Below the pieces are notes generated by a model. The model was not told where the DNA came from. It saw only the letters and a program-made list of their open reading frames with translations, and did not search any database. DNA of 64,000 bases from Winogradskyella sp. KYW1333 (GTDB lineage Bacteria > Bacteroidota > Bacteroidia > Flavobacteriales > Flavobacteriaceae): positions 62,001 to 126,000 of the forward strand of contig NZ_QPHL01000017.1 of the NCBI RefSeq assembly GCF_003335675.1, read 5' to 3'. The position numbers and the translations under genes were made by a program. Shown in pieces: positions 40,723-57,437 of the stretch (positions within the stretch are counted from its first letter, which is position 1; each line of letters opens with the position of its first letter).

Positions 40723-40732
40723 CTATATAACT

Positions 40733-43700
40733 ATGAAAAAAATTACTTTAATAATTGTTGTATTCACCACATTATTCTCTGTAAACGCGCAAGTTTTAAA
40801 TGAGTCTGCAGATTGGCCAAATTCTAATTGGTCAATCACAGGAACGTATGATGCAACTTATCTTTACGAAGACCCTACAACAACTTCGTCTAATTTCTCC
40901 TTTGACGATGATGACGCCAATAGTGGATCAAATAATGACTTGGCTGCTGAATCACCTGTTATTAATTTAACCAATGCTTTTAATGCTGGGGAAATATGGA
41001 TATCAATGGACACAGATTATGTGTTAAATATATTTCAAACAGAAACGCTTACAATTCAATATTGGGATGCTGACACCTCACAGTGGGAAAATTGGAGTAA
41101 TGTCTATGACACAAGTACTGCTGGAGCGCCAAATCAAAACTTCTGTTCCGGACCATTTGTTTCATTAAATCACCCAATCTTAAATATTGCAGCATTTAGT
41201 GAAAACCAATTAACAAACTTTAGGTATAGGATCTATTATCAAGATAATACGTCTTGGGGGTGGGGATTCTGTATAACTTCTCCTGTTTTAACTTCTGCGA
41301 CACCACCTACTTGTCCTGAGCCTATAAATTTAAATGCAATTAATATCACCGAAACGACGGCTGATTTGCAATGGACAGAAAATGGAACAGCAAGCTTATG
41401 GAACCTAGAATGGGGGCCCGCGGGCTTTACTCCTAGCACTGGAACCATGGTTAATGGTTTAACAAGTACAATTTATAATTTAACTGGATTATCTCAAGGT
41501 GTTACATACGATTTTTATGTGCAAGCTGATTGTGGTGGGGGTGACACTTCTTCTCTAGTTGGGCCATTTAATTTTATCACTAGTGCGCCAGGAGCTACCT
41601 GTAGTTCTGCATTTAATATATCTGTTAATGTAGATTGCAACAGTGCTGCACCAACTTCTTTTGATTTTAGTACTGCCACTGATATTGATGCAAACAACGA
41701 AAACCCAACCTGTGACGGGTCAGGGAATTATGGTTACTTTATCAGTTTTCAAGCTCCTGCAATTGGATCAGTGGTTGTAAGGTTTAGTGGCGCTGCTAAT
41801 AGTATAGGATTAGAGGTTTATGACTCTTGTGGCGGTAATTCAGTATCAACTTGTACCAACAATGATTTTAACTCAGGCGACAGTTCAGGAGAAATAACAG
41901 GATTAACAGCTGGCAATACTTATTATGCTGTAATATGGAGAGATCAACAAAACGGCACGGCAGATATCTGTATTGAACAAGGATCTACTTGCCCTTCACC
42001 AAGTAACTTAAATGCTTCAAGTGTTACTATTGATTCCGCTACGTTAAATTGGGTTGAAAACGGTTCAGCACCAGCATGGAATCTAGAATGGGGAACTTCT
42101 GGATTTACACTTGGAACAGGTACAGCAATCAACGATTTAAGTGCTACAAGTTATGCCCTTTCTGCATTAAGTTCGGGTACCTCCTACGATTTTTATGTAC
42201 TGGCTAACTGTGGTAGCGAAACTTCAAATTTCACTGGTCCATTTACTTTTACAACTCAATCTCCTGCGAGAATTAATTTTAACCCACAACCTATAACCGT
42301 GAGTGGTACTTATGATATGGCTATTGTTGATATGGACGGTGATTTTTTAGATGATATAGTTACAGTTTCAGCTTCAAATATTAATATTCAGAAACAAAAT
42401 AGTGATGGTTCATTTACCAATATCAATATTGCAACTCCAAACGCAAATTTTTTACCAAGTTGGAGTATTGCTGCGGCAGATTTTGATGCTAATGGTAAAA
42501 CAGATTTGCTTTATGGTGCTGGTAGTGGTGTTTCGTTTATGCAGGCCAGTAATGATGGTATGAGTTTTACTCAGCAGGCAACCACTCAATATACTTTCTC
42601 TCAACGTTCTAATTTCGTAGATATTAATAATGATGGAAATTTAGATGCCTTTGTATGTCATGATGTAGAACCAAACGTTTACTTCATAAATGACGGAACA
42701 GGAAACTTGACATTCTATCAGTCAGATATCACAACTGGCGCGCCATATTCATTGGGTAATTTTCCTTCTGGAGGTGACTATGGGTCTATCTGGATTGATT
42801 ACAATAACGACAGAAATATAGATTTGTTTATTGCAAAATGTGGAGGGTCTGAAGAAAGACGTACGAATATGATGTTAACTAACAATGGTAATGATTCATA
42901 TAGTGAAAATGCTGCCGCAATTGGACTAGCCGACCCAATGCAAACATGGTCATCAGCTTGGGGTGATTTTGATAATGATGGTGATATGGATGTTTTTGTT
43001 GGCGCAAGTTCTGGTGATCACAAATTGATGAGGAATAATGGATTTACTGATGACGGCAACCCAAATAATGATTACACATTTACTGATGTAACTATTGGCG
43101 CTGGAGTATCAACTGCTCCAACTGGCTGGGAAAGCTCTGCCTTTGATATAGATAATGACGGATACTTGGATATTATTGCAAATGGCACAATACTTTATGG
43201 GAAAGGCGATTTAACTTTTGAAGATGCCGACCCAAATCAAATAAATTATAAAAATGGTGCCTTTGGCGACTTAAATAATGATGGGTTTATAGATACTTTT
43301 TATAACGGAATTAGATACTATAATCAAGGTAATTCTAACAACTGGGTAAAAATTAATACAGTTGGAAACGTAAGTAATATCAATGGTATTGGCGCTCGAG
43401 TTGAAGTACACACTCCTAATGGTGTACAGATTAGAGATGTGCGTAGTGGTGAAGGATTTGAGTTTATGAGTAGTCTGAACACACATTTTGGACTAGGCTC
43501 CGAAACACAGATTGACAATATCATTATTTATTGGCCTTCAGGTATAATTGATAATATACCTAACCCAACTAGTAATACAACACATAATATCATTGAGGGC
43601 GCTTTCTTAAGTGTGGATGACGAAACAATTACTGATTTCACAGTTTATCCAAATCCTGTTGATGATGTTTTGAATATTAATTCTATCAATGATCTTTCTG

Positions 43701-43858
43701 AAGGTGTCGTTACAATATTTGATATTCAAGGCAAGGTTGTTTTGAATCAAAAACATGAAATAGATAAATTGGATGTGTCAAATCTTGAAGCAGGTATTTA
43801 TGTCCTTAGACTTGAAAACCATGGTAAACTGAGCATTCAGAAGTTTGTGAAAAAATAA
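40733..43858 (+). CDS. T9SS-secreted protein with fibronectin III, FG-GAP/VCBS repeats and ASPIC/UnbV domain
   Basis: A 1041-residue secreted protein. A signal peptide (MKKITLIIVVFTTLFSVNAQ) is followed by an N-terminal region that is a beta-sandwich by its residues, then two fibronectin III units (each starting near CPxPxNLNAxxIT and ending YDFYVxA). FG-GAP/VCBS repeats with DxDxDG calcium loops follow (VDMDGDFLDD, DINNDGNLD, DFDNDGDMDVF, DIDNDGYLD). The ASPIC/UnbV domain is GIGARVEV .. FGLGSE .. IIYWPSG. The last 80 residues are a type IX sorting domain (VYPNPVDDVLNI .. GIYVLRL). It should be displayed on or released from the cell surface. An upstream in-frame Met (40715) adds six residues before the signal and is less likely. 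Confidence 0.93.
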   Translation: MKKITLIIVVFTTLFSVNAQVLNESADWPNSNWSITGTYDATYLYEDPTTTSSNFSFDDDDANSGSNNDLAAESPVINLTNAFNAGEIWISMDTDYVLNIFQTETLTIQYWDADTSQWENWSNVYDTSTAGAPNQNFCSGPFVSLNHPILNIAAFSENQLTNFRYRIYYQDNTSWGWGFCITSPVLTSATPPTCPEPINLNAINITETTADLQWTENGTASLWNLEWGPAGFTPSTGTMVNGLTSTIYNLTGLSQGVTYDFYVQADCGGGDTSSLVGPFNFITSAPGATCSSAFNISVNVDCNSAAPTSFDFSTATDIDANNENPTCDGSGNYGYFISFQAPAIGSVVVRFSGAANSIGLEVYDSCGGNSVSTCTNNDFNSGDSSGEITGLTAGNTYYAVIWRDQQNGTADICIEQGSTCPSPSNLNASSVTIDSATLNWVENGSAPAWNLEWGTSGFTLGTGTAINDLSATSYALSALSSGTSYDFYVLANCGSETSNFTGPFTFTTQSPARINFNPQPITVSGTYDMAIVDMDGDFLDDIVTVSASNINIQKQNSDGSFTNINIATPNANFLPSWSIAAADFDANGKTDLLYGAGSGVSFMQASNDGMSFTQQATTQYTFSQRSNFVDINNDGNLDAFVCHDVEPNVYFINDGTGNLTFYQSDITTGAPYSLGNFPSGGDYGSIWIDYNNDRNIDLFIAKCGGSEERRTNMMLTNNGNDSYSENAAAIGLADPMQTWSSAWGDFDNDGDMDVFVGASSGDHKLMRNNGFTDDGNPNNDYTFTDVTIGAGVSTAPTGWESSAFDIDNDGYLDIIANGTILYGKGDLTFEDADPNQINYKNGAFGDLNNDGFIDTFYNGIRYYNQGNSNNWVKINTVGNVSNINGIGARVEVHTPNGVQIRDVRSGEGFEFMSSLNTHFGLGSETQIDNIIIYWPSGIIDNIPNPTSNTTHNIIEGAFLSVDDETITDFTVYPNPVDDVLNINSINDLSEGVVTIFDIQGKVVLNQKHEIDKLDVSNLEAGIYVLRLENHGKLSIQKFVKK

Positions 43859-43877
43859 TATTTATACACTTATTCTT

Positions 43878-43908
43878 AAAACCGTTTGAGAAATCAAGCG
43901 GTTTTTTT
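43878..43908 (+). terminator. Terminator after the ASPIC/UnbV gene
   Basis: Stem AACCGTTTGA / TCAAGCGGTT (one G-T wobble), 4-base loop and a seven-T run, 20 bases past the stop. It ends 16 bases before the ABC ATPase start codon. Confidence 0.87.
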
Positions 43909-43924
43909 GTGGTATTTTTGCAAT

Positions 43925-44836
43925 ATGCTTCAAGTTAAAAATGTCTCTTTCACTTATACCAAAAGCAAGGTTTTAAATAATATAAGCTTTGATCTTGCTA
44001 AGGGTAAAACTTTAGCTATTATCGGAGAAAGTGGTTCTGGGAAAAGCACCTTATTAAAGCTAATTTATGGTGAATTTGATTTAAAAGAAGGTGAAGTGTG
44101 GTGGAATAATAAACAGGTCTTAGGTCCAGCATTCAATCTTATTGTAGGTTATGATTTTATGAAATATGTTACCCAAGAATTCGACTTGATGCCTTACACC
44201 ACAGTTGAAGAAAATGTTGGGAAGCACCTTTCGCGCTTTTATCCAGAACAAAAAGAAAAACGAACTAAAGAATTGCTCAGAGTTGTAGAACTTGAAGCTT
44301 TTGCCAATACCAAAGTGAAAAATCTAAGTGGTGGACAAAAACAACGTGTGGCCTTAGCTAGGGCATTAGCAAAAGAACCCGAAATATTGTTATTAGATGA
44401 ACCCTTCAGCCATATAGACAATTTTAAAAAACAATCTTTGCGAAGAAGTATTTTCAGTTACTTAAGAAAAAACAGTATCAGCTGTCTGATTGCTACCCAC
44501 GATAAAAATGATGTTTTAGGGTTCGCTGATGACATGATTGTTCTAGATGAGAAAAAAATTGTAATAAAAGATACACCACAGAACGTATATCGTAATCCAA
44601 AACTACCTCTGGTGGCTTCGTTTTTTGAGGAATTTTCAATCATTGACGGAGTAATATATTATGCTCATCAACTACAAATTGTAGAAAATTCCAAACATGA
44701 AGCTGAGGTTAAAAGATCCTATTTTAATGGGAAGAATTGGTTGATTGAGGCTACGCACCAATCCAATTCTATTTTTATTGAACACCATTGCAAATTAAAA
44801 CCGAATAGCTCCTTATTTTTTAAAATATTCCAGTAG
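43925..44836 (+). CDS. ABC transporter ATP-binding protein (orphan)
   Basis: A 303-residue ATPase. Walker A is GESGSGKST at residues 35-43, the signature is LSGGQKQRVALARALA, and Walker B is ILLLDEPFSHID. The C-terminal 70 residues are an accessory domain that I cannot assign. The domain order resembles PotA-type import ATPases, but no permease or binding protein lies nearby, so its transporter is unknown. The start at 43925 gives MLQVKNVSFTY; an upstream TTG/ATG extension overlaps the terminator. Confidence 0.87.
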   Translation: MLQVKNVSFTYTKSKVLNNISFDLAKGKTLAIIGESGSGKSTLLKLIYGEFDLKEGEVWWNNKQVLGPAFNLIVGYDFMKYVTQEFDLMPYTTVEENVGKHLSRFYPEQKEKRTKELLRVVELEAFANTKVKNLSGGQKQRVALARALAKEPEILLLDEPFSHIDNFKKQSLRRSIFSYLRKNSISCLIATHDKNDVLGFADDMIVLDEKKIVIKDTPQNVYRNPKLPLVASFFEEFSIIDGVIYYAHQLQIVENSKHEAEVKRSYFNGKNWLIEATHQSNSIFIEHHCKLKPNSSLFFKIFQ

Positions 44837-44837
44837 A

Positions 44838-47090
44838 TTATTTATCCAACTTCTTCAATAGAGCAGGTAAATAAAAGGTGTCTGTAATTAAGGCCATGGC
44901 AACTGTTACGGTACAAAGCAAGCCAAAATCCTGAACAGAAGGTGTTGCGCTAGACGCTATAATTAAAAACCCTCCAACCAAAGCAATCGTTGTTGATATT
45001 AAAGCACTACCTGTATAGCGCATAGCATTGTCCATGCGTTCTTTTGGCGAGCCAGTAATATATTTACTTCGCCTGTATTTATGTACTAAGTGAATCGTGT
45101 CATCCATAGCAATTCCCAACATAATAGGTGTTATCATTGCTGTTGTAACATCTAAGGGAATGTCTAGCAAACTCATAAATATAGCAAGTATAGCTAGTGG
45201 TAAAATATTTGGTATGAGTACTAATATGGTAGTTCTCAGATTCTTTATAAACACCCAAAGACATAGAAATGCCACAAAAAATGCTGCAAAGAAGGACTTA
45301 AACTGAGTCTCTAAAATAAAGTTGTTCAATTGCGCAAAGACAACTGCAAAACCATTTATTTTCAAATCATAATTATCAGTATCGAATGACGATTTAAAGG
45401 CTTGTTTAATATCATCAAGCGCTTGTTCTAATTCTGATGTTCGCATTTCCATAAGGGTTAGCGTAAAACCGGCTGTTGATAGGTCTTCTGAAAATAATTT
45501 AAAAAAACTGTTTTCTCTAGCATCAACATCTTTAAGTGTATTCTTTAGTTTCACCTCTGATATATCAGATTGAAATAAAACAGGTGTGCGTTGTTCTAGG
45601 AAGGATTTTATGGTAACCACCGAAACTGGATTTGATATCAGTGGGTTTGCTTCAAGCTTATTCTGAAAATCCTCTAATCTTTTAATAGCATCTTTATTCA
45701 ATATTGCGCGGCCATCTTTTGTAGCTATATTTATTTGAAGTCGGTTACTTCCGCCCAGCTCTACTTCAACTGCTCTTAAGTCTTGTTTTGCCTTGCCTTC
45801 TGCCAATAAATCTCTGGAATTGGTGTCGATCTTTACCTGAAATACAGAATAAATACCAAATATTAGCACAGCTGTAAATGATACAATCAGGGTGTTCTTA
45901 TATTGGCTTGTAAAACCATTTAACCATTCAATAAAGCCAGATTGAGAAAAAGTTTTAAAACTTAAAATTGGTTTAGCTTTTTCAAAATTTAAATTCATAA
46001 AACTAAAGCCGATAATAGTAATTACATATACCAATAAAAAACTCAGAATTAATCCAATACATGTAAAAACACCCATGTTTTTAAATGCAGGTAAAGGCGA
46101 TAAATAAAGTGCAAAATAGCCCACAAGGGTTGTAAGGGTTGTATAGAAACAAGGTGTTAAACTCTTTCGTATTGAAATTGCCAACAAATCAACCTCTGAA
46201 AAATTGGTGTTAACAAGTCCTTCTTTGTGGTAAATGTTTATAATATGAACCGCATCACTAACGCTATACACCATTAGAATAGTTGGGATAAGCATAGAAA
46301 TCATATTCAATGCAAAACCAAGAGAAGTAATTAATCCAAAAAGTAAACTAACCGGAATCGCAACCGACAGTAATGCTATTAGTAGATAACGTTTACTTGG
46401 TAGTAGAAATAAAAGCAATACCGTAATGACCAAAACAGTTAGGATACCAAATATTAGACTTTCTTTATAAATGCCTTTGCTATAAGCCTCATTTAATACT
46501 GGTGGTCCTGTTAGATAATAATCTGAATACATCTGTCCAACTACACTTTCAACTTCAACAGCTATTTCTTGTCGGTCTTCCTCAATGGTCGGTGTAGGTT
46601 TCATTTGGATATAAAACAGCTGGTTTTTATAGTCCTTAGTTACCAATTGTGAACTAATGTTGGATAGTTTAGAAAACAGGTTTTTCAATCCTTTTTCACT
46701 TCGTCTTGAATTATATAAATCGTGAAATCTGATGTTATTATTTGCGTAGATTGGGTATTTAGCCTTGGCCAAGCTAAAGGTTGTTTTTACGTAGGGCAAT
46801 GCTTCAATAGATTGCTGTAATTCCTTTAACTTGTTTACTTCTGATTCACCAATTGCATTTTCAACTGGTAGCATGATAATAAAAATCTCATCTGATCCAA
46901 AATTCTCCTGGAAATCTATGTATGCCTTGTAACTCGGATCGTCCTCTAAAAACCATATTGAAAGTGAATTGTCAACACTTAGTTTATTAAGTGTTTGATA
47001 GGCAGATAATACCATTAGTATCACCAAAATTGCGATAATGGATATTCTGAATTTAATAATAATAGGTATAATACGCTTCATTCGTTCCAT
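44838..47090 (-). CDS. RND/MMPL-type lipid exporter of the type III PKS operon
   Basis: A 750-residue protein of the RND superfamily with the MMPL layout: TM1 near the N-terminus, a periplasmic domain (to about 200), five clustered helices (FGILTVLVITVLLLFLL onwards), a second periplasmic loop, and the second set of five helices. GIAMDDTIHLVHKYRR is the conserved TM4/10-type element that couples to protons. It is the last gene of the operon, two bases after the PPTase. MMPL proteins export lipids and polyketides across the inner membrane, so it is the likely exporter of the product. Confidence 0.85.
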   Translation of the reverse strand: MERMKRIIPIIIKFRISIIAILVILMVLSAYQTLNKLSVDNSLSIWFLEDDPSYKAYIDFQENFGSDEIFIIMLPVENAIGESEVNKLKELQQSIEALPYVKTTFSLAKAKYPIYANNNIRFHDLYNSRRSEKGLKNLFSKLSNISSQLVTKDYKNQLFYIQMKPTPTIEEDRQEIAVEVESVVGQMYSDYYLTGPPVLNEAYSKGIYKESLIFGILTVLVITVLLLFLLPSKRYLLIALLSVAIPVSLLFGLITSLGFALNMISMLIPTILMVYSVSDAVHIINIYHKEGLVNTNFSEVDLLAISIRKSLTPCFYTTLTTLVGYFALYLSPLPAFKNMGVFTCIGLILSFLLVYVITIIGFSFMNLNFEKAKPILSFKTFSQSGFIEWLNGFTSQYKNTLIVSFTAVLIFGIYSVFQVKIDTNSRDLLAEGKAKQDLRAVEVELGGSNRLQINIATKDGRAILNKDAIKRLEDFQNKLEANPLISNPVSVVTIKSFLEQRTPVLFQSDISEVKLKNTLKDVDARENSFFKLFSEDLSTAGFTLTLMEMRTSELEQALDDIKQAFKSSFDTDNYDLKINGFAVVFAQLNNFILETQFKSFFAAFFVAFLCLWVFIKNLRTTILVLIPNILPLAILAIFMSLLDIPLDVTTAMITPIMLGIAMDDTIHLVHKYRRSKYITGSPKERMDNAMRYTGSALISTTIALVGGFLIIASSATPSVQDFGLLCTVTVAMALITDTFYLPALLKKLDK

Positions 47091-47092
47091 AA

Positions 47093-47635
47093 CTATGCTC
47101 TTACATAAGCACCATATCGCCCATGGTGGGATAAGCTAACGTGAAAAAGCTCTTTTCCATTACTTAATATAGGTACATCAAACGCATTCTTTTCTATGCG
47201 AAACTTTGAGTCCAATGAATCTATAAGTTTAGCTTTTAATTCATCGCTCTGCCCGGCGTAACCCAATGAAACAAATTCAATAATTTCAGAATTGAGCTTT
47301 TGTTTCTTTAAACTCGCTTCTGAAATAATATAATTAGAAGTAATCTTTGATTGAACGAAACAGGAAAAGTTTTTATATTTCACCGTGCCCAAATCTTTCT
47401 TAATCGTACACTGAAATGCTTTAGGGTTATAGAAACGACTTGGTGCAATTTGTGTGTATAATTTATAAGAAGCCTCTTTCATACTCCACAACCGCCAAAC
47501 CATTTTAAAAGCCTTTTCCGCACTATTGATATAGGCTTGCTCCTGTTCAGAAAAAAGTTTATCCAAAAACCTTGGGCGTTGCCAATTTGAGGCCCGACTT
47601 GCTTCATTTAAATCAACAATGTCATTGCCAACCAT
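47093..47635 (-). CDS. 4'-phosphopantetheinyl transferase
   Basis: A 180-residue PPTase that attaches the phosphopantetheine arm to an acyl carrier protein. The Mg2+/CoA-binding motif is GNDIVDL at residues 3-9 and the second motif is WSMKEASYKLY (Trp50 to Glu54, consensus WxxKEA). It is of the short AcpS-like to Sfp-like intermediate size. It overlaps the ACP gene by one base, so it is the natural partner for that ACP, whose site differs from the housekeeping one. Confidence 0.88.
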   Translation of the reverse strand: MVGNDIVDLNEASRASNWQRPRFLDKLFSEQEQAYINSAEKAFKMVWRLWSMKEASYKLYTQIAPSRFYNPKAFQCTIKKDLGTVKYKNFSCFVQSKITSNYIISEASLKKQKLNSEIIEFVSLGYAGQSDELKAKLIDSLDSKFRIEKNAFDVPILSNGKELFHVSLSHHGRYGAYVRA

Positions 47636-47886
47636 TAATCTGCAAGTTTTGAAGTCACAATGCTCATAGCAGACTTTACATCTAGCATTTTTTCCATGTC
47701 CTCATTTTCTAAACGAATATTAAATTCATCCTCAATATCTAAAATGATATCAACTAGATTGGCTGAGTTTATCTTTAGATCCTTTACAAAATCTGTGTCT
47801 TCTGACAGGTTTTTAAACGCCTTCTCATCTTGTATATAAGGCGCTACAATAGTCTTTAATTTGGTAATTAATTCTTCCTTGTTCAT
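47635..47886 (-). CDS. Acyl carrier protein of the type III PKS operon
   Basis: An 83-residue acidic carrier protein. Its attachment site reads DLKINSANLVDIIL, with Ser41; the usual D-S-L is replaced by N-S-A, which may explain the dedicated transferase downstream. Helix 2 and 3 are standard (EDEFNIRLENEDMEKM). It probably carries the acyl chain made by the neighbouring ketosynthase, dehydratase and reductase. Confidence 0.85.
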   Translation of the reverse strand: MNKEELITKLKTIVAPYIQDEKAFKNLSEDTDFVKDLKINSANLVDIILDIEDEFNIRLENEDMEKMLDVKSAMSIVTSKLAD

Positions 47887-47908
47887 AACATAACTTTGAT
47901 TTGTAAAG

Positions 47909-49183
47909 TTACGCTATAAATCGCTTAAATAAAACACAGGCATTAACATCACCAAAACCAAAACTTGCTTTGGCAATGGTGTCAAACTCCTGATCAATTT
48001 TTTTATGTGGTATTTTTTCGGGTGAAACTAATTCTTCAATACCAGGATGTAAATCGTCACAATTGATATTAGGCGCAATAAATTGTTCCTTAAGCTGAAT
48101 GATACTAGCCACACACTCTATTGCACCAGCCGCTGCCAAACAATGGCCAACTAATGATTTGGTTGAATTAATAAAGGGGAAGTTCTTACCTTGCCTTTGT
48201 AAGGCTTTGGTCCAATTTTCAATTTCTAGAGTATCTTTAGAGGTGGCGGTAAGATGCCCATTAATGACCTCTATTTCACTAGAAACTATTCCAGAATTTT
48301 GTAAGGCGTTTTTAATACAGCGATGAACTGCTTCTGGGTTTGGTGCTGTTAATGTACCTCCTTGACGTTGACCACCAGAGTTTATCTCACCACCCATAAC
48401 CTCAGCATAAATAGTTGCACCACGCTCCAATGCACTTTCTAACGATTCTAAAACTAAAGCACCCGCACCACTTCCTGGTACAAAACCAGAAGCTGACACG
48501 CTCATAGGCCGTGATCCTTCTGTTGGGCTGTCATTATGTTTGTATGTCATAACTCGCATGGCATCAAACCCTCCCCAAATATATGGTCCATGGTCACTAC
48601 AACTACCAACCAGCATGCGTTTAGCTTTTCCGTATTTAATCCTCTCGTAACCCATTAAAAGAGCTTCGGTACCCGTTGTACATGCTGAAGAATTTGTGGT
48701 GACCTGATTGCCAAAACCAAGCATACCGCCTAAATAAGCGCTTATACCACTTGCCATGGTTTGTAAAACAACTGTACTTCCTAAGCGCCTAACATTGCCT
48801 TCGTCGAGCTTGTGAATGGCTTCCCTAAATTTTTCTACTCCTGAGGTTCCTGTACCAAAAATGAGCCCAGTATCATAATCTAACTCACTTTTAGAATTTA
48901 AATCGAATCCTGCGTCTTTCCATGCATCCATACCCGCTATACAACCATATAAAATGCCAGAACTGTTAAACCCACGTAACTGTAGGTCCGTAAAATATTT
49001 AGATATTAATTCATCCGTAATTTGAGGTATGCCTCCTATTTGACAAGAAAAATTAAGGTCTTTTAAGTCTTGGTGAAATCTGATGCCAGATGTTCCGTTT
49101 TTTAAGGCTTTGGTAAAATCCGATAAACCTACGCCATTTGGTGCGACAATACCTAATCCTGTTATGACTACTCGTTGCTTCAT
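47909..49183 (-). CDS. Beta-ketoacyl-ACP synthase of the type III PKS operon
   Basis: A 424-residue thiolase-fold condensing enzyme, FabF-like. The triad is complete: Cys168 (NSSACTTGTEA), His310 in GHLTATSKDTLE and His347 in VGHCLAAAGA. The usual NTHGTGT around the first His is NGHLTAT here, a marked deviation shared with no housekeeping copy in the window. Its start overlaps the stop of the dehydratase by 4 bases. It likely extends the starter acyl chain on the local ACP. Confidence 0.88.
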   Translation of the reverse strand: MKQRVVITGLGIVAPNGVGLSDFTKALKNGTSGIRFHQDLKDLNFSCQIGGIPQITDELISKYFTDLQLRGFNSSGILYGCIAGMDAWKDAGFDLNSKSELDYDTGLIFGTGTSGVEKFREAIHKLDEGNVRRLGSTVVLQTMASGISAYLGGMLGFGNQVTTNSSACTTGTEALLMGYERIKYGKAKRMLVGSCSDHGPYIWGGFDAMRVMTYKHNDSPTEGSRPMSVSASGFVPGSGAGALVLESLESALERGATIYAEVMGGEINSGGQRQGGTLTAPNPEAVHRCIKNALQNSGIVSSEIEVINGHLTATSKDTLEIENWTKALQRQGKNFPFINSTKSLVGHCLAAAGAIECVASIIQLKEQFIAPNINCDDLHPGIEELVSPEKIPHKKIDQEFDTIAKASFGFGDVNACVLFKRFIA

Positions 49184-49617
49184 GCTTTCAACATTCCTGA
49201 TATTACACCTCGTGCCACCAATTCCCCCTTTTTATTTAACATCTTAACCTTGCACTTTAATTTATTGAATCGGAATACTTCTTTTTCTGAATGAACAATG
49301 ACCTTTTCTCCTGGTAAAACCGGTAAATAAAAATCTATTTTATTAGAGGTTAGTGCTACCTGAGGTTTCTTGGCGTTCTGTAATTCATCTTTCAACAAGA
49401 AAATACCAAAACAAACCAATCCAATTTGTGCCATACATTCCGTTAATATCACTCCTGGCGTGATTGGGTTATCTTTAAAATGTCCTTTATAGAAATATTC
49501 GTCTTTCCTAAATGTATAATGTCCACGTATTTCATTTTCAGAAACAGTATCTATGGCATCTACAAACAAAAATGGTCTTTGGTATGGTAAAAGTTCTATG
49601 ATATTTTGTTCTTCCAT
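49180..49617 (-). CDS. 3-hydroxyacyl-ACP dehydratase, FabZ-like
   Basis: A 145-residue hot-dog fold protein. The active-site pair is visible as His46 (YKGHFKDNPITPGVI) and Glu60 (LTECMAQIG), as in FabZ/FabA. It would remove water from 3-hydroxyacyl chains. Its reaction requires a ketoreductase, and none is encoded in the operon, so the housekeeping FabG may serve. It lies 3 bases after the enoyl-reductase-like SDR. Confidence 0.88.
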   Translation of the reverse strand: MEEQNIIELLPYQRPFLFVDAIDTVSENEIRGHYTFRKDEYFYKGHFKDNPITPGVILTECMAQIGLVCFGIFLLKDELQNAKKPQVALTSNKIDFYLPVLPGEKVIVHSEKEVFRFNKLKCKVKMLNKKGELVARGVISGMLKA

Positions 49618-49620
49618 TTT

Positions 49621-50415
49621 TTAAATTAAATGTTCTCCTCCATCTACAGGAAGAACTGTCCCTGTTATCCAAGAAGCTTCGTCTTTAGTTAATAAATAAA
49701 CAACATTAGCGACATCTTCTGGTGTAGTTAGGCGTTTATTAGGGTTGCGCTGTGATGCATATTTAATAATCTTTTCAACATCTGGAATCATACGTAAAGA
49801 TTTGGTGTCAGTAATACCCGCTTGAATACAATTGGCCTTTATACCAAAAGGCGCAAACTCTAATGCTATACTTCTAGTTATCGCTTCTAAAGTTACTTTT
49901 GCTGCTGAAACAGCTGCGTAATTTTTCCATGCTTTTGAATTACCCTGACTTGTAAAACTAATAATCCGTGAATCTTCAGCAAATAAATTTGCTTCAAAAA
50001 CCACTTTAACCCAATCATACAAACTTATTCCCATGGCTTGAATGGTAAGCGCAAAATCATCATGTTTTAATTCATTATTATCATCTGATACCATGGGCTT
50101 CAAATTTCCTTTTGCTACACTATGAACCATGGTTTTTATTTTTTGATTATCACCAAGCAAAGACTTCAATTCTTGAATAATCATGTTACGTTTGTCTGGA
50201 TTAAAGGCGTCGCTATTAAATGACTTAAATTGAACGCCTTCTTGCTTTATTGATTCAAACTCTTTTAAAATAACTTCTTCTTGCATTCTTGGATTGCGAT
50301 GAACAATACAAACATTCATGCCGTGTTTGGCGAGTTTCTTTGCAGACGCCAATCCAAGACCACTGCTACCACCAAGTACTAAGGTCCAAAAGTTTTTATC
50401 TTTAAATTCTTTCAT
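49621..50415 (-). CDS. SDR enzyme, probably enoyl-ACP reductase (FabL/FabI-like)
   Basis: A 264-residue short-chain dehydrogenase with the nucleotide loop GGSSGLGLA at 15-23. The active site is not the SDR YxxxK of ketoreductases: the Tyr position before SAAK is Val169, and Tyr166 stands seven residues before Lys173 (YAAVSAAK). That is the Y-x6-K spacing of enoyl reductases FabI and FabL, and the flanking residues (ENY/KNY..ALEALTR..) resemble FabL. It would saturate the acyl chain. An ordinary ketoreductase is the alternative, but needs an unusual catalytic site. Confidence 0.75.
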   Translation of the reverse strand: MKEFKDKNFWTLVLGGSSGLGLASAKKLAKHGMNVCIVHRNPRMQEEVILKEFESIKQEGVQFKSFNSDAFNPDKRNMIIQELKSLLGDNQKIKTMVHSVAKGNLKPMVSDDNNELKHDDFALTIQAMGISLYDWVKVVFEANLFAEDSRIISFTSQGNSKAWKNYAAVSAAKVTLEAITRSIALEFAPFGIKANCIQAGITDTKSLRMIPDVEKIIKYASQRNPNKRLTTPEDVANVVYLLTKDEASWITGTVLPVDGGEHLI

Positions 50416-50416
50416 A

Positions 50417-51469
50417 TCACCATTCTAATAATATCCTCTGAGCGGAAAAACCAGGTCCAAAACTCAGCATAATACCTTTATCCCCTTTAGGTAAATTTCT
50501 GTCCGTAAATCGCTCTAATACATATAGTACAGTGGCGCTACTCATATTACCATATTGTCTTAGAACCTCTTTTGTGTCGTTTATATTTTTGCCTAAATCA
50601 CCAAATAATTCCTCAACGGTTTGTACAATTTTCTTTCCTCCTGGGTGAAAAACTAAATGATTAATATCCTCAATTGTTAGATTGTTACGTTCTAAAAATG
50701 GATGAATAATATCTGGGAAGTGATCTGCGATTGTCTGTGGCACAGATTGGTCTAAAACCATTTGCAAACCTGTATTTCTTAATTTAAAACCCATCATATG
50801 CTCTGTATCAAAAAAATGATACATAGCCTCATCTTTGATTTCAGGTCCTTTTTCGTCTTCATAAGAAGACAAAATAACACTTGCGCAACCATCTCCAAAA
50901 ATTGCGGCACTTACAATGTTAACCATCGAATAATCATCTAATTGAAATGTCGCTGTTGGCGACTCTACCGCAATAACAACTGCGCGTTTATTGGGGTTTG
51001 CTTTTAAAAAGTTCTTTGCGTATAAAATACCCGAAACTCCTGCCGCACATCCCATTTCTGTCACGGGTAAACGCACAATATCTTGTTTCAACTTTAAACT
51101 ATTAATAAGATATGTATCTAAAGATGGAATCATTATTCCAGTGCAACTCACTGTGATGATGTAATCTAGATCAGTTGGCTGTAATTTGGCTTTATCTAAA
51201 GCTTTTACCAAACTTTCTTCTGCCAGCTTTATGGATTCTCGCGTGTATATATCGTTTTTTTCTTCAAAAGATGTTTTTAAAAATACCTCTTCAGCATCCA
51301 TTATGGAGTACCGCTTGTCAACAGCTGCGTTTTCAAAAATCTTAAGGACTTTTCTTTTAAAACGCTCTTCTTGCCCATCGAGCCAAAGTTCTACATAAGG
51401 TAAAATGTCTTTGGTTTCTCTAGTATATTTTGGAAGTTGCTTTGCAACTGATGTAATTCTTACTGCCAT
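50417..51469 (-). CDS. Type III polyketide synthase (chalcone synthase-like)
   Basis: A 350-residue homodimeric enzyme that extends an acyl starter with malonyl-CoA and cyclises it. The triad is complete: Cys141 (TEMGCAAGVSG), His275 (LVFHPGGKK) and Asn308 (QYGNMSSATVLY). The C-terminal SFGPGFSAQ is the family's GFGPG loop. Bacterial members make alkylresorcinols, alkylpyrones or tetrahydroxynaphthalene. The neighbouring fatty-acid enzymes argue for a long acyl-ACP starter, hence an alkylresorcinol or alkylpyrone core. It directly abuts the methyltransferase and the SDR. Confidence 0.92.
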   Translation of the reverse strand: MAVRITSVAKQLPKYTRETKDILPYVELWLDGQEERFKRKVLKIFENAAVDKRYSIMDAEEVFLKTSFEEKNDIYTRESIKLAEESLVKALDKAKLQPTDLDYIITVSCTGIMIPSLDTYLINSLKLKQDIVRLPVTEMGCAAGVSGILYAKNFLKANPNKRAVVIAVESPTATFQLDDYSMVNIVSAAIFGDGCASVILSSYEDEKGPEIKDEAMYHFFDTEHMMGFKLRNTGLQMVLDQSVPQTIADHFPDIIHPFLERNNLTIEDINHLVFHPGGKKIVQTVEELFGDLGKNINDTKEVLRQYGNMSSATVLYVLERFTDRNLPKGDKGIMLSFGPGFSAQRILLEW

Positions 51470-52180
51470 TTAAGTTTTAATTAGCCATTGGTAGCGGAAT
51501 GCCCATTTCCAACAAATTTGTGATTTAAGGTTCAATTGTTTAGAGATATTTTCTAACTCATAGCGTTTAAATGCTCTTAATATAGATGTTAATCCGTCTT
51601 GCACAATCATATGGTTCGAAATCACCAAACCTAATAATTTAAATAAACCATAAGCAACTTTATTACGGTGCAAATCATTTACAACAATACCTAATTTTGC
51701 CTTTGATGTTATTATTTTTAAAAGGTTGTGAATTTCATCCTGATTAAAATGATGTAAAAACAAAGTTGAAAGTACAACATCATAATCTAAGTCTTGGAAT
51801 TCTTCTGAGAAAATGTCAATGTTTTCAAAGGTTAGTTCTTCATAATCTTGAGATAATTCAATTGCGTAATCAATAGCGTCCTGATTAGCATCAATTCCGA
51901 TTAATTTGAACTTATAGCCTTCTTGTCTTCCATAATCTCCTATTAGCCTTAAGATTTCTCCATGACCACAACCCAAATCTATAATGGTAATCAATTTGTT
52001 TTTTGGTTGATCGATTAGCACTTTTTTAAGGCCGTTTAACGTGACGTGGTTTCCCCCAAGCCATTTGTTTATCTTACCGAGTTTGTCCAATGTATCACGA
52101 AGCAACTCGCCCTTCATGGAAAAATCATCCATAAGTTCAGGCTCATTACTTCTGTATGTTGTATCAACAAATAAACTCAT
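51470..52180 (-). CDS. SAM-dependent methyltransferase of the type III PKS operon
   Basis: A 236-residue class I methyltransferase. The SAM-binding motif I is IIDLGCGHGEILRL (about 66-79), followed by an acidic IGIDANQDAIDYA and the motif DVVLSTLFLHHFNQD. It resembles UbiE/Coq5-like and phenolic-lipid methyltransferases. Its stop is directly next to the type III PKS start, and it overlaps the FAD enzyme by one base. It would methylate the aromatic or pyrone product on carbon or oxygen. Confidence 0.87.
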   Translation of the reverse strand: MSLFVDTTYRSNEPELMDDFSMKGELLRDTLDKLGKINKWLGGNHVTLNGLKKVLIDQPKNKLITIIDLGCGHGEILRLIGDYGRQEGYKFKLIGIDANQDAIDYAIELSQDYEELTFENIDIFSEEFQDLDYDVVLSTLFLHHFNQDEIHNLLKIITSKAKLGIVVNDLHRNKVAYGLFKLLGLVISNHMIVQDGLTSILRAFKRYELENISKQLNLKSQICWKWAFRYQWLIKT

Positions 52181-53310
52181 TAAACTTTCATGGATTTTCC
52201 ATGAGTTATTTTAATTATTAATGGTACCAAAAAAGGCAATCGTCTTAAAACAAAAAGTAATTTTGGCGCCAACCATTCTTGTCTAAATAAATAGGCAATA
52301 CTGTGACCAACTTTTAATCTCAAGCTAAAAGTTCTATTCCAATTTCTTGAATACTTCCGCTCTAATTCAACTCTGCTTTTTATTTTATTTTGAAGATAGT
52401 CAATAACAAGCTCAGATGCTAATTGTGCGCTTCTAATGGCCATTCCCATCCCGTTTCCACATAGTGGATGAATCATTCCGGCGGAATCACCACACATTAT
52501 CATATTATTTTCAATAGGGTTTTTAGTTTCAAAAGAAATCTGACTGATGGTTAAGGGCTTTGTAAATTGAAGTTTAGAACCTTCAAATACGTTTTTTAAA
52601 GCCTTATTCTTATATACAACTTGCTCTTGAAACGTTTCTATATCCATATATGTTTTGAAAGTTTGATAGTTAGTGATATAGCACAGGTTAATATGGTTGT
52701 TTTCAACTTTTGAAACACCGCAATACCCTCCTTTGAAATTATGAAGCGCTACTGTATCTTCTGGGAAATGACCAGAGACATGAATTTTGACACCTAAATA
52801 AGGTGACTTCTTTTTAATAAAATTACGATTAAATTTTACATCTATATTTGATCGCTTACCATAGGCTCCTATAGCAATTTTTGAAGTAAAGATGTGATTT
52901 GATTTTGTTTGAATATGAAATTGATCGTCGTCAAAAACAACATCAACAACAGTATCTTTAATGACTGAAATACCATGATTCAAAGCTATTTGAAAGAGTT
53001 GAAAATCCATTTCATATCGACTCATGCCGAATCCACCTAAAGGCAAATTGGCTTCAATGTTTTTATTATTATGTGTTGTTAATTGGAATTTTGAAATGGT
53101 CTTGGCACCAAATTCAAATGGGTTAAATCCTAAATAATTTAAATAGGGTAAGACTTCATTAGACACGTATTCTCCGCATACCTTGTGTTTTGGATAACTG
53201 TTTTTCTCAATAAGCAAAACATCAATGCCTTGTTTTGATAAGTGGATCGCACTACATAGTCCAGCCAAACCGCCACCAATAATTATAACATCGAAATTTT
53301 GTTTATGCAT
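52180..53310 (-). CDS. FAD-dependent oxidoreductase of the type III PKS operon
   Basis: A 376-residue flavoprotein, geranylgeranyl-reductase/UbiH-like. The N-terminal FAD site is VIIIGGGLAGLCSAIHL (GGGLAG at 12-17), followed by KHKVCGEYVSNEVLP, and the second FAD motif MCGDSAGMIHPLCGNGMGMAIRSA carries the GD signature. Such enzymes hydroxylate aromatic rings (as SrsC does in phenolic-lipid pathways) or reduce double bonds. Near-perfect end-to-start spacing with its neighbours. Confidence 0.87.
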   Translation of the reverse strand: MHKQNFDVIIIGGGLAGLCSAIHLSKQGIDVLLIEKNSYPKHKVCGEYVSNEVLPYLNYLGFNPFEFGAKTISKFQLTTHNNKNIEANLPLGGFGMSRYEMDFQLFQIALNHGISVIKDTVVDVVFDDDQFHIQTKSNHIFTSKIAIGAYGKRSNIDVKFNRNFIKKKSPYLGVKIHVSGHFPEDTVALHNFKGGYCGVSKVENNHINLCYITNYQTFKTYMDIETFQEQVVYKNKALKNVFEGSKLQFTKPLTISQISFETKNPIENNMIMCGDSAGMIHPLCGNGMGMAIRSAQLASELVIDYLQNKIKSRVELERKYSRNWNRTFSLRLKVGHSIAYLFRQEWLAPKLLFVLRRLPFLVPLIIKITHGKSMKV

Positions 53311-53822
53311 TAGTAATCTTGATAATGCTTCACATTAATTTTTACTGTTTTACCTAATATAAAACTACCTCCTCCTACATCATAATCCCTTCGATTGATT
53401 TCAAAATAAGAAGTTATTTTATAATTATCATCTGACTTAAGTACTGTGACAGGAAAAGTAATTTTCTTTGCTTTACCTTTTATAGTTAGAACAGCGATTA
53501 CTTTATAATTATTTGGGCCTACATCTTTAATTTCTGAGCTTGACAAGGTAATGGTTGGATGCTTTTTTGCATCAAAATAATCCTCTTCCAAAATATGCTC
53601 ATCCCTACTATCAATACCTGTTTCAATCGAAGAAACATTAATCGTGCTTGTAATGCTTATTAGCTGTCTTTCATTGTCAAAACCAGCAACAATTTTAAAG
53701 GAATTAAAGTGACCATCTACATTAACTCCAAGATTTTTAATTACAAAATCAACACTTGATTCTTGTGTGTTTGTATAACAAAAACTGAATAAGCACAAAA
53801 AGTGTATTAATAAACGTGACAT
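53310..53822 (-). CDS. YceI family lipid-binding protein
   Basis: A 170-residue exported protein: the signal peptide is LIHFLCLFSFCYTNTQ, followed by the YceI lipocalin-like barrel (VDFVIKNLGVNVDGHFNSFKI, then EDYFDAKKHPTITLSS, and VKINVKHYQDY). Members of this family bind polyisoprenoids or isoprenoid quinones in a hydrophobic barrel in the periplasm. It is first in the operon and might carry the product after export. No clear -7/-33 pair is seen in the 59 bases before it. Confidence 0.86.
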   Translation of the reverse strand: MSRLLIHFLCLFSFCYTNTQESSVDFVIKNLGVNVDGHFNSFKIVAGFDNERQLISITSTINVSSIETGIDSRDEHILEEDYFDAKKHPTITLSSSEIKDVGPNNYKVIAVLTIKGKAKKITFPVTVLKSDDNYKITSYFEINRRDYDVGGGSFILGKTVKINVKHYQDY

Positions 53823-53881
53823 CTTTTTTGTTTTTCAAGTTACTGCACAAGCAGAAAAGGGTAAAGTGATTTAACGTTTTT

Positions 53882-54334
53882 CTATAGTACTTTTAAAATC
53901 TGAAATTTTCGATTATTGAATTGAATAGTATCGCCTTTTGTCTTAGATAGCAATAATCTACCGATTGGTGTGGCTGGTGAAATCGCAAAAAATGACTGAC
54001 CATCCACTTCAATTTCTCCAGTACTTATTGCTAAGAAATAATTTGCTTGAATAGTAAAGACTACCGAACCCAATGCTATTTGCTTCTGCCTAGAATCTGT
54101 ATTTATTTTGTTGAGTAGCTCAAACTGTTTTTGAATTTCAGCCAGCTGTTGACCAGCTTTTTCTCGCTCTAACTGAAGCATAGCACGTCCTGTTTCATGC
54201 TTATCTCCTGCAGAACTTTTAGTTTCTGATTGAAGATTAGTTTCAATATCTGAAATGGTTTGTTGTAAAACCTTTAATCGAAGGTTTAAAGCGTTCTTAC
54301 ATTCATTATACAGACTCTCTTTAATACTAATCAT
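53882..54334 (-). CDS. GreA/GreB-like protein
   Basis: A 150-residue protein with an N-terminal coiled-coil of about 75 residues (LRLKVLQQTISDIETNL .. LEREKAGQQLAEIQKQFELL) and a C-terminal FKBP-like domain (ISPATPIGRLLLSKTKGDTIQFNNRKFQI) as in transcript-cleavage factors. The acidic tip residues of Gre cannot be placed with confidence, so it may be an anti-Gre or Rnk-like factor. It overlaps the amino-acid-oxidase gene by 4 bases. Confidence 0.72.
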   Translation of the reverse strand: MISIKESLYNECKNALNLRLKVLQQTISDIETNLQSETKSSAGDKHETGRAMLQLEREKAGQQLAEIQKQFELLNKINTDSRQKQIALGSVVFTIQANYFLAISTGEIEVDGQSFFAISPATPIGRLLLSKTKGDTIQFNNRKFQILKVL

Positions 54335-55443
54335 AACAGATCTGCCAATTCCTTACCCACTAAACTTCCTATGGCAACACCCATACCGCCAAGTCTTACA
54401 CCACAAAATACGTTATTACTGATTTGTTTTACAATTGACTTTTTCTGATTACCAACTCCCATAATACCAGACCAACGATGGTCTATCTCAAAATCAATGT
54501 TTGGAATAATTGTAGTCCTTAAAAGATCTTCTAGTTTTTCTTGAATTAACTCTGTCTGTCCGAATTCAGTGGTTTCTTCACCTTTAAAATCTAAATTTCT
54601 TCCACCTCCAAAAAGAATTCTATCCTCTATATTCCTAAAATAATAATAGCCTTTATCTAAATGAAATGTTCCTTTTATATGAAGGTTTTTAATAGGTTTT
54701 GTAATTAAAACCTGAGCTCTGGCTGGTGCTACTTTTTGATTAATGAGTTGCGAAGCAAAACCATTGGTTGCAATTAAAACTTTATTCGATTTAATTTCAA
54801 AATTATTGGTTTTTATAACCGCTGAATCATTGTTCTCACTGATTTCATTTACCAAACAGTTATTTAGAATTTTAATACCTGATGACTGCGCTTTTTTAAG
54901 AAGTGCATCCATCATTTTGCCAGTATCTATTTGACCTTCAAATTGATTGAAACTTAATTGTTCGACTGCATGGTTAAAGCCAAATTCATTAGGTTTGAAT
55001 GAAAAGACCTCCTCATAAAATAAAGGTTTCAGCAACTTATTTATTGTATCCTTTTGTGATTTACATTTTAAAAAAAGAGATTCATCATTTTTTAAAAACA
55101 ACTCATAACCACCAAATGGCTTATAGTCTAATTGTCTATCACCGACGGTTTTTCGAAGTAATTGCAACCCATTTACACGCTTTGCGACAAGATCAATAAC
55201 CTCTTCTTCTGAGTGGTTTTGTAAATCGTCAATGATTTCGCTAAGACTGCCAAAACAAGTAAAACCTGCGTTTTTAGTACTTGCGCCTTGTGGTAGCATG
55301 CCTTTTTCTAAAACAATAATCTTAGCTTGAGGATATTTGCGTCTTAGCTCCAAAGCACAACTTAAGCCCACAATACCACTTCCAACAACAGTAAAGTCTA
55401 CATTAGTAAGCCAAGTCTTTATTTCCCAGTATGATAAATTCAT
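54331..55443 (-). CDS. FAD-dependent oxidoreductase, DAO family
   Basis: A 370-residue DAO-type flavoprotein. The FAD-binding VVGSGIVGLSCALELRRKYP is near residue 19, with GASTKNAGFTCFG next, and the C-terminal FCGVRLGGMGVAIGSLVG is the second FAD region. Members oxidise glycine, sarcosine, proline or D-amino acids; the substrate cannot be told. It is coupled by a 4-base overlap to the GreA/GreB-like gene, whose role seems unrelated. Confidence 0.82.
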   Translation of the reverse strand: MNLSYWEIKTWLTNVDFTVVGSGIVGLSCALELRRKYPQAKIIVLEKGMLPQGASTKNAGFTCFGSLSEIIDDLQNHSEEEVIDLVAKRVNGLQLLRKTVGDRQLDYKPFGGYELFLKNDESLFLKCKSQKDTINKLLKPLFYEEVFSFKPNEFGFNHAVEQLSFNQFEGQIDTGKMMDALLKKAQSSGIKILNNCLVNEISENNDSAVIKTNNFEIKSNKVLIATNGFASQLINQKVAPARAQVLITKPIKNLHIKGTFHLDKGYYYFRNIEDRILFGGGRNLDFKGEETTEFGQTELIQEKLEDLLRTTIIPNIDFEIDHRWSGIMGVGNQKKSIVKQISNNVFCGVRLGGMGVAIGSLVGKELADLL

Positions 55444-55448
55444 TGTAT

Positions 55449-55480
55449 AAAAAAAGCCCCTAAAGTTAGGAGCTTTTTAT
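55449..55480 (-). terminator. Terminator after accC
   Basis: On the minus strand AAAAAGCTCCTAA pairs with TTAGGGGCTTTTT around a 3-4-base loop, giving a stem followed by T residues directly after the accC stop. Confidence 0.82.
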
Positions 55481-56833: not shown

Positions 56834-56916
56834 CATTTTTGTTTTAAAAAATTCTATTTCCAAACACCTAATTCCAATAAACTGGTCTTGGATTTATGAA
56901 TTGGAATTTTCAATTG

Positions 56917-57402
56917 TTATGATGGGTCAACCAAGAATAACGGTTGATCAAATTCTACTGGAGAAGCGTCATCTACTAATACTTTAACGATTTTACCAGT
57001 AACCTCTGATTCAATTTCGTTAAACAATTTCATTGCCTCAATAACACATAGGACATCACCTTCTTTTATGTTCGTACCAACCTCAACAAATACTGGTTTG
57101 TCCGGAGAAGGCTTTCTATAAAATGTTCCAATTATTGGAGACTTGATCGTAATATATTTTGAATCATCAGATGATGTCGCTGGTGCAACAGGAGCTTCAG
57201 GAGTCGCTACAGGTACTGGTACTGGAACGTGTTGCTGAACAACCGGTGCAGATGCTTGAACTGGAACTTGTTGAACAATTGTAGTTTCGCTATCAGAACC
57301 CGTTCTAATTGTAATTTTAACATCATCCATTTCTAGCTTAACCTCGCTCGCACCAGACTTGGCAACAAATTTAATTAAGTTTTGAATTTCTTTTAAATCC
57401 AT
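56917..57402 (-). CDS. accB: Acetyl-CoA carboxylase, biotin carboxyl carrier protein
   Basis: A 161-residue carrier. The biotinyl lysine is Lys125 in CVIEAMKLFNEIE, inside the C-terminal barrel (IGTFYRKPSPDKPVFVEVG). A Pro/Val/Ala-rich linker (about 45-78) links an N-terminal dimerising helix. The order fabH-accB-accC is common in Bacteroidetes. Confidence 0.96.
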   Translation of the reverse strand: MDLKEIQNLIKFVAKSGASEVKLEMDDVKITIRTGSDSETTIVQQVPVQASAPVVQQHVPVPVPVATPEAPVAPATSSDDSKYITIKSPIIGTFYRKPSPDKPVFVEVGTNIKEGDVLCVIEAMKLFNEIESEVTGKIVKVLVDDASPVEFDQPLFLVDPS

Positions 57403-57437
57403 AGTATTTAGACATTTTTGTTAGTTAGTTAATTTTT

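Follow-up and report, generated by a model that had tools for sequence, protein, structure and literature searches.

The window analyzed here is a 64,000-nucleotide stretch of DNA from Winogradskyella sp. KYW1333 (Flavobacteriaceae; contig NZ_QPHL01000017.1, positions 62,001 to 126,000), a bacterium with a genome of 2.81 Mb. Between positions 44838 and 53822, its minus strand consists of ten open reading frames (ORFs) arranged head to tail, which encode a type III polyketide synthase (PKS) along with tailoring enzymes, a set of fatty acid synthase (FAS)-like proteins and accessory functions (Table 1). The intergenic gaps range from -4 to 22 bases (in operon order, YceI/FAD enzyme -1, FAD enzyme/methyltransferase (MT) -1, MT/PKS 0, PKS/short-chain dehydrogenase-reductase (SDR) 1, SDR/dehydratase 3, dehydratase/ketosynthase (KS) -4, KS/acyl carrier protein (ACP) 22, ACP/4'-phosphopantetheinyl transferase (PPTase) -1 and PPTase/MMPL 2). 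In the same order, the Pfam labels are YceI (PF04264), FAD-binding, methyltransferase, chalcone/stilbene synthase N and C, adh_short_C2 (the SDR), FabA-like, ketoacyl-synt N and C, PP-binding, ACPS and MMPL, and NCBIfam is concordant. The ten genes on one strand, their gaps of at most 22 bases and the family labels given in an initial annotation of this DNA are thereby borne out. We propose, with a probability of roughly 0.55, that the core genes constitute one pathway to a tailored phenolic (or quinone-type) lipid by way of a FAS-primed type III PKS; the head group, the chain, the acyl-ACP hand-off, the ring type, the order of tailoring and the export are what we infer from the observed genes and residues.

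Table 1. Genes of the cluster in operon order, with window coordinates.
Feature	Position	Strand	Basis	Standing
YceI-like secreted lipid-binding protein (predicted)	53310..53822	-	PF04264 3.3e-28	accessory, outside core
FAD-dependent oxidoreductase, probably aromatic hydroxylase	52180..53310	-	Pfam/NCBIfam, 98/98 loci, fold	core tailoring
SAM (S-adenosylmethionine)-dependent methyltransferase	51470..52180	-	Pfam, 98/98 loci, fold	core tailoring
Type III polyketide synthase, Cys141-His275-Asn308	50417..51469	-	Pfam, triad, Pks11 relative	core
SDR, enoyl-ACP reductase (FabL/FabI) type, Tyr166-x6-Lys173	49621..50415	-	3oic match	frequent, dispensable
FabZ-like 3-hydroxyacyl-ACP dehydratase, His46/Glu60	49180..49617	-	PF07977 and FabZ models	core
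Beta-ketoacyl-ACP synthase, own clade, Cys168-His310-His347, HLTAT	47909..49183	-	95/98 loci	core
Dedicated acyl carrier protein, Asn-Ser-Ala site	47635..47886	-	PF00550 24 bits, cut-off 20.8	core
4'-Phosphopantetheinyl transferase	47093..47635	-	PF01648 1e-12	clade-variable
MMPL/RND (HAE3-like) transporter, candidate exporter	44838..47090	-	PF03176 3.8e-27	clade-limited

Conserved residues of the core enzymes

Both Pfam domains of the PKS exceed the curated cut-off of 27 bits (PF00195, 70.4 bits; PF02797, 76.8 bits), and the catalytic triad was correctly assigned from the start: Cys141, His275 and Asn308 are identical in 101/101 aligned sequences, which comprise the window, the 98 orthologous loci introduced below and two distant loci, L169 and L173. 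Residue counts here and in what follows are limited to loci whose gene was called as an ORF and assigned to a sequence cluster. The closest solved relative of the PKS is the mycobacterial Pks11, labelled as an alpha-pyrone synthesis PKS, and other near relatives with solved structures are 1u0m, CylI and Steely1. Among the best 80 of 567 relatives, the closest named PKS is that of Winogradskyella vincentii (97%), and Winogradskyella accounts for 15 of the first 20 named records.

The FAS-like proteins retain their catalytic residues as well. The KS keeps Cys168, His310, His347 and Lys342 in 96/96 aligned sequences, thus displaying the Cys-His-His triad of type II FAS ketosynthases, while HLTAT replaces HGTxT (Leu in 95/96); the FabF encoded in the window has His-Gly-Thr-Ser-Thr. 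Five proteins of the genome match PF00109 above its cut-off, two of them over the whole domain, namely the KS of the cluster and the FabF-like protein encoded at 4828-6078; the other three matches span 37-50 positions and are taken for putative thiolase-like proteins. In a tree with the KS of five flexirubin loci, the cluster KS forms a clade of its own apart from three flexirubin KS groups, with FabF and one flexirubin row on long branches and the relations between clades unsure. An origin from flexirubin or aryl polyene enzymes was rejected on account of this separate clade. The dehydratase has His46 and Glu60 in 95/95 aligned sequences. The best solved relative of the SDR is 3oic, an enoyl-ACP reductase (1.3e-25), with the Tyr-x6-Lys spacing aligned; Tyr166 is present in 84/85 rows and Lys173 in 85/85, one of these rows being an unrelated SDR from L170. 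The ACP site, which had been called atypical, is indeed so: it reads Asn-Ser-Ala, as opposed to Asp-Ser-Leu in the primary ACP (6089-6322), and Asn40 and Ser41, the latter the predicted carrier of the prosthetic group, are found in 86/86 aligned sequences and Ala42 in 84.

Gene order and co-inheritance

The distribution of the cluster was assessed in a family set of 299 Flavobacteriaceae genomes from 236 genera and a phylum set of 395 genomes. At an E-value of 1e-30 or better, the PKS is matched in 104/299 family genomes and 84/236 genera, one of these matches (G131) being 33% identical, and PKS and KS occur together in 82/236 sampled family genera, about a third. Within the genus, an orthologue at 87% identity or more is present in 22/37 genomes. 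The phylum set yields matches in 168/395 genomes, among which orthologues share at least 65% identity and the other matches listed at most 37%; three genomes outside the family (G432, G484 and G592) hold orthologues of 72-73%.

Gene order was compared in 98 orthologous loci of up to 20 kb each, taken from 98 other genomes (20 of the genus, 75 of other family genera and 3 from outside the family); L169 and L173, with a 33% PKS and a different kind of locus, were kept out. All 98 carry the FAD enzyme, MT and PKS genes on one strand and in the same order. These three are followed by the KS in 95/98, the ACP in 95/98, the dehydratase in 94/98 and the SDR in 84/98, and the exact string FAD-MT-PKS-SDR-dehydratase-KS-ACP recurs in 46 loci; L101, L125 and L133 are without the KS. 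The gene profiles were built from the same loci that were counted, and the counts are therefore descriptive and provide no independent test. The conserved order far exceeds chance. Genes interposed between cluster genes in single loci appear unrelated, as judged by eye and for most of them without a family search. Of the ten-gene order, the core part is kept across these loci, whereas YceI, PPTase and MMPL vary with the clade.

A second sample, the best 80 of the 567 relatives (L186-L265), consists of named loci from genera that include Polaribacter, Psychroserpens, Gelidibacter, Lacinutrix, Tenacibaculum and Bizionia. The MT is present in 80 of these, the FAD enzyme in 79, the dehydratase in 77, the KS and the ACP in 76 each, the PPTase in 73, the SDR in 61 and MMPL in 16, some loci being cut by contig ends and strand and distance being unchecked; the sample overlaps the 98 loci and the two are not summed. 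In a single locus, L177 (G209:C1:841123-842162), the PKS and FAD genes each match in two reading frames, and because of this the copy may be decayed or its assembly faulty.

The two halves of the core are inherited together. At an E-value of 1e-80 or better, the KS is found in 101/299 family genomes, all 101 of which have the PKS, and a KS without a PKS occurs in 0/299. The three genomes with a PKS only are G131 (the 33% PKS), G197 and G351 (76% complete); in G197 (L176), a dehydratase match lies at a contig end, about 9 kb from the SDR. In G248 and G203, FAD-MT-PKS-SDR (L133 and L125) stands apart from dehydratase-KS-ACP (L174 and L175), with both halves kept, and in G125 and G334 the PKS and KS are on different contigs, the PKS contig of G125 ending inside the dehydratase gene. 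Fisher's exact test of this co-occurrence gives p = 3e-77, which is not a fair probability because the genomes share kinship.

The fixed order, the co-inheritance and the kept catalytic residues indicate that a single pathway most likely unites the FAS-like genes with the PKS, and the pairing of these two sets made in the initial annotation is upheld by the order in 95/98 loci, by strict co-occurrence in 299 genomes and by the split genomes. Alternatively, the KS, dehydratase and ACP might make a separate specialized fatty acid and have nothing but regulation or inheritance in common with the PKS and tailoring genes. The halves can stand apart, as in G248 and G203, and their link to the PKS is drawn from sequence, both of which leave room for this idea; however, the KS never occurs without the PKS and the order is fixed in nearly all loci, which renders a separate fatty acid highly improbable.

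In the proposed pathway to a tailored phenolic lipid, a type II FAS-like set (KS, FabZ-like dehydratase and FabL-like reductase) would build or reshape an acyl chain on the dedicated ACP, with ketoreductase and malonyl transacylase or malonyl-ACP borrowed from primary metabolism. The type III PKS would then accept the acyl-ACP as starter, add malonyl units and close the ring, following which the MT and the FAD monooxygenase would methylate and hydroxylate it. In particular clades, PPTase, YceI and MMPL would assist by activating the ACP, carrying the lipid and exporting it, respectively.

Chain, tailoring and ring type

Several points weigh against this reading. Co-occurrence also follows if the operon is merely inherited or lost as a block; that G248 and G203 retain both split halves argues against mere block inheritance, in only two genomes. 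In a Pfam scan, the ten genes yielded neither a ketoreductase nor a malonyl transacylase, and the sole SDR is of the enoyl-reductase type, such that the full set of type II FAS activities, ketoreductase included, is not present. The SDR itself is absent from 14/98 loci. In the genus, its orthologue occurs in 16/22 PKS-bearing genomes and in 0/15 genomes without the PKS, and the six PKS-bearing genomes that do not have it at the locus have no orthologue elsewhere, indicating that chain saturation by the SDR is not essential. The missing ketoreductase and the clade-variable MMPL, YceI and PPTase (the last in 46/98 loci) thus show that the cluster is not self-contained, and its description as such was overstated.

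A further such point is that the top NCBIfam match of the PKS is DpgA, an enzyme making a small aromatic CoA (174.5 bits, cut-off 425). The flow through the cluster might accordingly be the reverse of that proposed, with the PKS making a small aromatic acid in the manner of DpgA and the KS and dehydratase extending this starter into an aryl chain or polyene. Flexirubin-type clusters, in which sets of KS, dehydratase and ACP build aryl polyenes, offer a parallel, and the loci without an enoyl reductase are in keeping with it. Against this stand the distance of the DpgA match from its cut-off, the presence of the enoyl reductase in most loci, the separation of the KS from the flexirubin groups in a tree with long branches flagged, and the absence of a ketoreductase, a second KS (chain-length factor) and a CoA ligase from the ten genes. 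Reverse flow is consequently regarded as distinctly unlikely.

With regard to tailoring, the model of the FAD protein (mean predicted local distance difference test score, pLDDT, 86.7) brings up flavin halogenases ahead of hydroxylases, another point that counts against a phenol-hydroxylating pathway. The halogenases PltA (Z 35.7, root-mean-square deviation (rmsd) 2.9, 360 residues aligned) and Bmp2 (34.9, 2.9, 356) rank above p-nitrophenol 4-monooxygenase (32.7, 3.2, 359) and p-hydroxybenzoate hydroxylase (32.6, 3.2, 357). The motif WxWx[IVL]P, however, is found in 0/98 FAD sequences (the window and 97 loci, with L084 excluded since its FAD gene matches as two ORFs); we take WxWxIP to be the motif of FADH2-dependent halogenases. 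Lysines 70 and 74, in the stretch that is presumably the place of the halogenase lysine, are not conserved. A halogenase was rejected on these two grounds despite the fold ranking, and because the motif is absent throughout, the FAD enzyme is probably an aromatic hydroxylase.

The MT model (pLDDT 90.5) matches, among others, BpumL (Z 20.7, rmsd 2.8, 208 aligned), CouO (20.2, 2.8, 207), NovO (19.8, 2.9, 206) and Coq5 (19.5, 2.9, 207), which are mostly tied. CouO, NovO and Coq5 are ring C-methyltransferases, and the modelled fold is compatible with ring C- or O-methylation. When the MT and FAD genes of the planctomycete Gimesia maris were co-expressed with their PKS, a single methylation, probably on carbon, was obtained according to the relevant passage of PMC10896814, and what the FAD enzyme does could not be established there, which also tells against the reading proposed here.

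Elsewhere in the phylum, too, the tailoring pair accompanies type III PKSs. Twenty more distant loci, which fall into several kinds, carry type III PKSs that are 28-35% identical to that of the window. In three of these, L283, L284 and L285, an MT adjoins the PKS and a FAD enzyme lies nearby (the FAD match of L285 is weak, 34 bits), and L283 and L284, which represent a type B triad, have FAD and MT proteins homologous to those of the cluster (38.7-42.6% and 32.5-38.6% identity, respectively; 42.6% and 38.6% for L284). These two loci carry a UbiA prenyltransferase gene (PF01040; L283:6086-6952 and L284:5876-6766) in place of the FAS-like set, a gene that a scan of 204 loci found in these two alone, L285 lacking it, and their PKSs fall in a different clade. 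In these two loci, which come from two further families of Bacteroidota, the combination of UbiA with type III PKS, MT and FAD enzyme may represent a prenylated polyketide pathway. The 20 distant loci show no match to the KS, dehydratase or ACP within the 13-15 kb covered by each, the rest of those genomes being unsearched.

At 1e-35, homologues of the FAD enzyme are present in 82/395 phylum genomes, and all of these but G357, G544 and G586 (79 genomes) hold a type III PKS as well. Outside this type of cluster, 46 genomes have both; of the 36 listed, 25 have them no more than 2.5 kb from each other and 11 have them far apart or on other contigs. In G383, G493, G525, G540, G543, G650, G669 and G728 the FAD homologues (31-36%) lie far from the type III PKS, so that some members of this FAD family may act in different pathways. 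It would appear that, in flavobacteria, a tailoring pair accompanying type III PKSs has been joined to another PKS clade and to a FAS-like module.

The type of ring cannot be read from sequence, and this too weighs against a phenolic assignment. The same assembly line may instead close an alkyl-alpha-pyrone (or an acyl-phloroglucinol), with the MT and FAD enzyme modifying that head group and no quinone being formed. Pks11, the nearest solved relative, speaks for this, and so does the PKS tree, in which the window clade does not join the three MT-bearing type B enzymes, even though the FAD and MT proteins are closer to type B; this was a quick tree with unsure branches and long ones flagged. 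In BpsAB-type alkylpyrone clusters, an ICMT methyltransferase adjoins the PKS. Of seven distant loci with neighbors listed, L266, L267, L268, L271 and L274 have a similar-looking gene of 163 to 183 residues downstream, and that of L266, the sole one of the five tested, is an ICMT (PF04140). None of the ten cluster proteins matches ICMT in Pfam, so this neighbor is missing from the operon. Moreover, alkylresorcinols were the products of type III PKSs that adjoin an MT and a FAD oxidoreductase (those of planctomycetes and HidC, in passages of PMC10896814). An alkylpyrone product is, in our judgment, unlikely.

The pathway to a phenolic or quinone-type lipid can be likened to several known systems, of which the hierridin triads and the Azotobacter ars operon come closest. 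Streptomyces SrsA, SrsB and SrsC are a type III PKS, a methyltransferase and a flavoprotein hydroxylase, the same types as the trio of the cluster; we know of no FAS-like set in the same operon. Flexirubin/dialkylresorcinol (DarA/DarB) clusters of the same family have a KS, ACP, SDR and dehydratase near an aromatic-lipid enzyme. The best match to DarB in the genome studied reaches 32.8 bits against a cut-off of 550, and 6 of the 14 genomes with DarB above cut-off also hold the cluster PKS (G060, G070, G071, G077, G086 and G101), which indicates two separate systems. In Azotobacter, a dedicated fatty acid synthase feeds the type III PKS of the ars system. The ars cluster is named in PMC3098273, where the cited title of Miyanaga et al. 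2008 ascribes a type I FAS to the operon (ArsA-D), in contrast to the discrete type II-like proteins of the present cluster, which has MT and FAD enzymes in addition.

The cyanobacterial hierridin genes hidABC and their planctomycete relatives resemble the cluster in that a type III PKS stands next to a SAM methyltransferase and an oxidoreductase, as described in parts of PMC8086630 and PMC10896814, and in both cases one would expect a tailored alkyl phenol. The pairing of FAD enzyme and MT beside a type III PKS, which supports the initial annotation, recurs both in the phylum and in these triads. The order differs, being MT-oxidoreductase-PKS (PMC10896814) or PKS-MT-oxidoreductase (PMC8086630) as opposed to FAD-MT-PKS, and the passages concerned name no KS, dehydratase, enoyl reductase or ACP, all of which the cluster has; the likeness is one of description only. 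Transfer of a chain to a type III PKS from carrier-protein enzymes, as proposed here, is exemplified by CylI of cylindrocyclophane synthesis, whose clusters include type I PKS modules and a halogenase in the corresponding section of PMC8086630, whereas the cluster has neither.

For flavobacteria, type III PKS clusters make up 9% (PMC7440613) and 10.74% (PMC10734526) of biosynthetic clusters and appear in the pertinent parts of these papers only as antiSMASH counts. One type III PKS cluster is listed in Fulvivirga (PMC12565237), a term search of PMC9248904 returned nothing on type III PKS, and PMC9606717 contains a passage on flexirubin. In the open-licence literature we found no description of the gene set, no assigned product and no characterized homologous cluster, in agreement with the earlier statement that no characterized product was known for it.

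Taken further, the proposal is that a free-standing type II FAS set with an Asn-Ser-Ala ACP loads a type III PKS directly, yielding an unseen class of methylated, hydroxylated (quinone-type) lipids from a FAS-like module joined to a tailoring pair that is found with UbiA elsewhere; this extended version we put forward tentatively, at somewhat less than even odds.

Accessory genes, flanks and implications

The genes outside the core vary in their association with it. The PPTase lies beside the cluster in 46/98 loci (20/20 of the genus, 23/75 of other family genera and 3/3 outside the family), with Asp5, Lys53 and Glu54 in 46/46 aligned sequences, and PF01648 detects two PPTases in the genome, one of which lies outside the cluster. 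An MMPL gene is found in 21/98 loci, 15 of them in the genus, 6 in other family genera and 0 outside the family; its role as the exporter of the system was therefore claimed too broadly. The MMPL protein scores 199.6 bits against TIGR00921, below the cut-off of 351.9. A member of the YceI cluster occurs within 10 kb in 17/20 Winogradskyella loci and 26/78 others, a proximity in excess of what three YceI copies in a 2.8 Mb genome would lead one to expect. Since the gene is mostly on the opposite strand outside the genus, its membership of the core is weak and was rejected. A membrane-like protein of about 146 residues (e.g., L162:6679-7116, minus strand) without a Pfam match is encoded in 22/78 non-Winogradskyella loci, mostly directly after the ACP; where MMPL is missing, this protein might serve as a carrier or exporter.

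The 59-base gap that precedes YceI contains no Bacteroidetes-type promoter, as judged by the motif that we take to define one, and 37 sigma-70-like sites are found in 44500-56000, fewer than the mean of 47.7 in shuffled sequence, from which it follows that the transcript may start further upstream. An Rfam scan returned two tRNAs and nothing else. Downstream, a convergent ABC transporter gene (43886-44836) ends 1 base from the end of the MMPL gene; upstream lie an ORF of 150 residues, which matches nothing in Pfam at 1e-8, and a DAO-family oxidoreductase gene. On the same strand as the cluster and 1.7-4.6 kb upstream of it (55481-58433), there are genes for a biotin carboxylase-like protein (by eye), a biotin/lipoyl domain protein and a FabH-like ketoacyl-ACP synthase (KAS) III, and a biotin carboxylase-like gene is near the cluster in several further Winogradskyella loci. 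The plus strand at 40715-43858 encodes a secreted-looking protein of 1047 residues, the C-terminus of which resembles, by eye, what we take to be a type IX secretion sorting domain.

As a family, the cluster is widespread among flavobacteria; its parts are ordinary and their combination is unusual. If the proposed pathway is correct, dedicated type II carrier-protein enzymes prime a type III PKS here. A result from one strain would then assign a product to the clusters, with both PKS and KS, of 82/236 genera sampled in the family, and the compound could turn out to be a membrane or redox lipid of these marine organisms.

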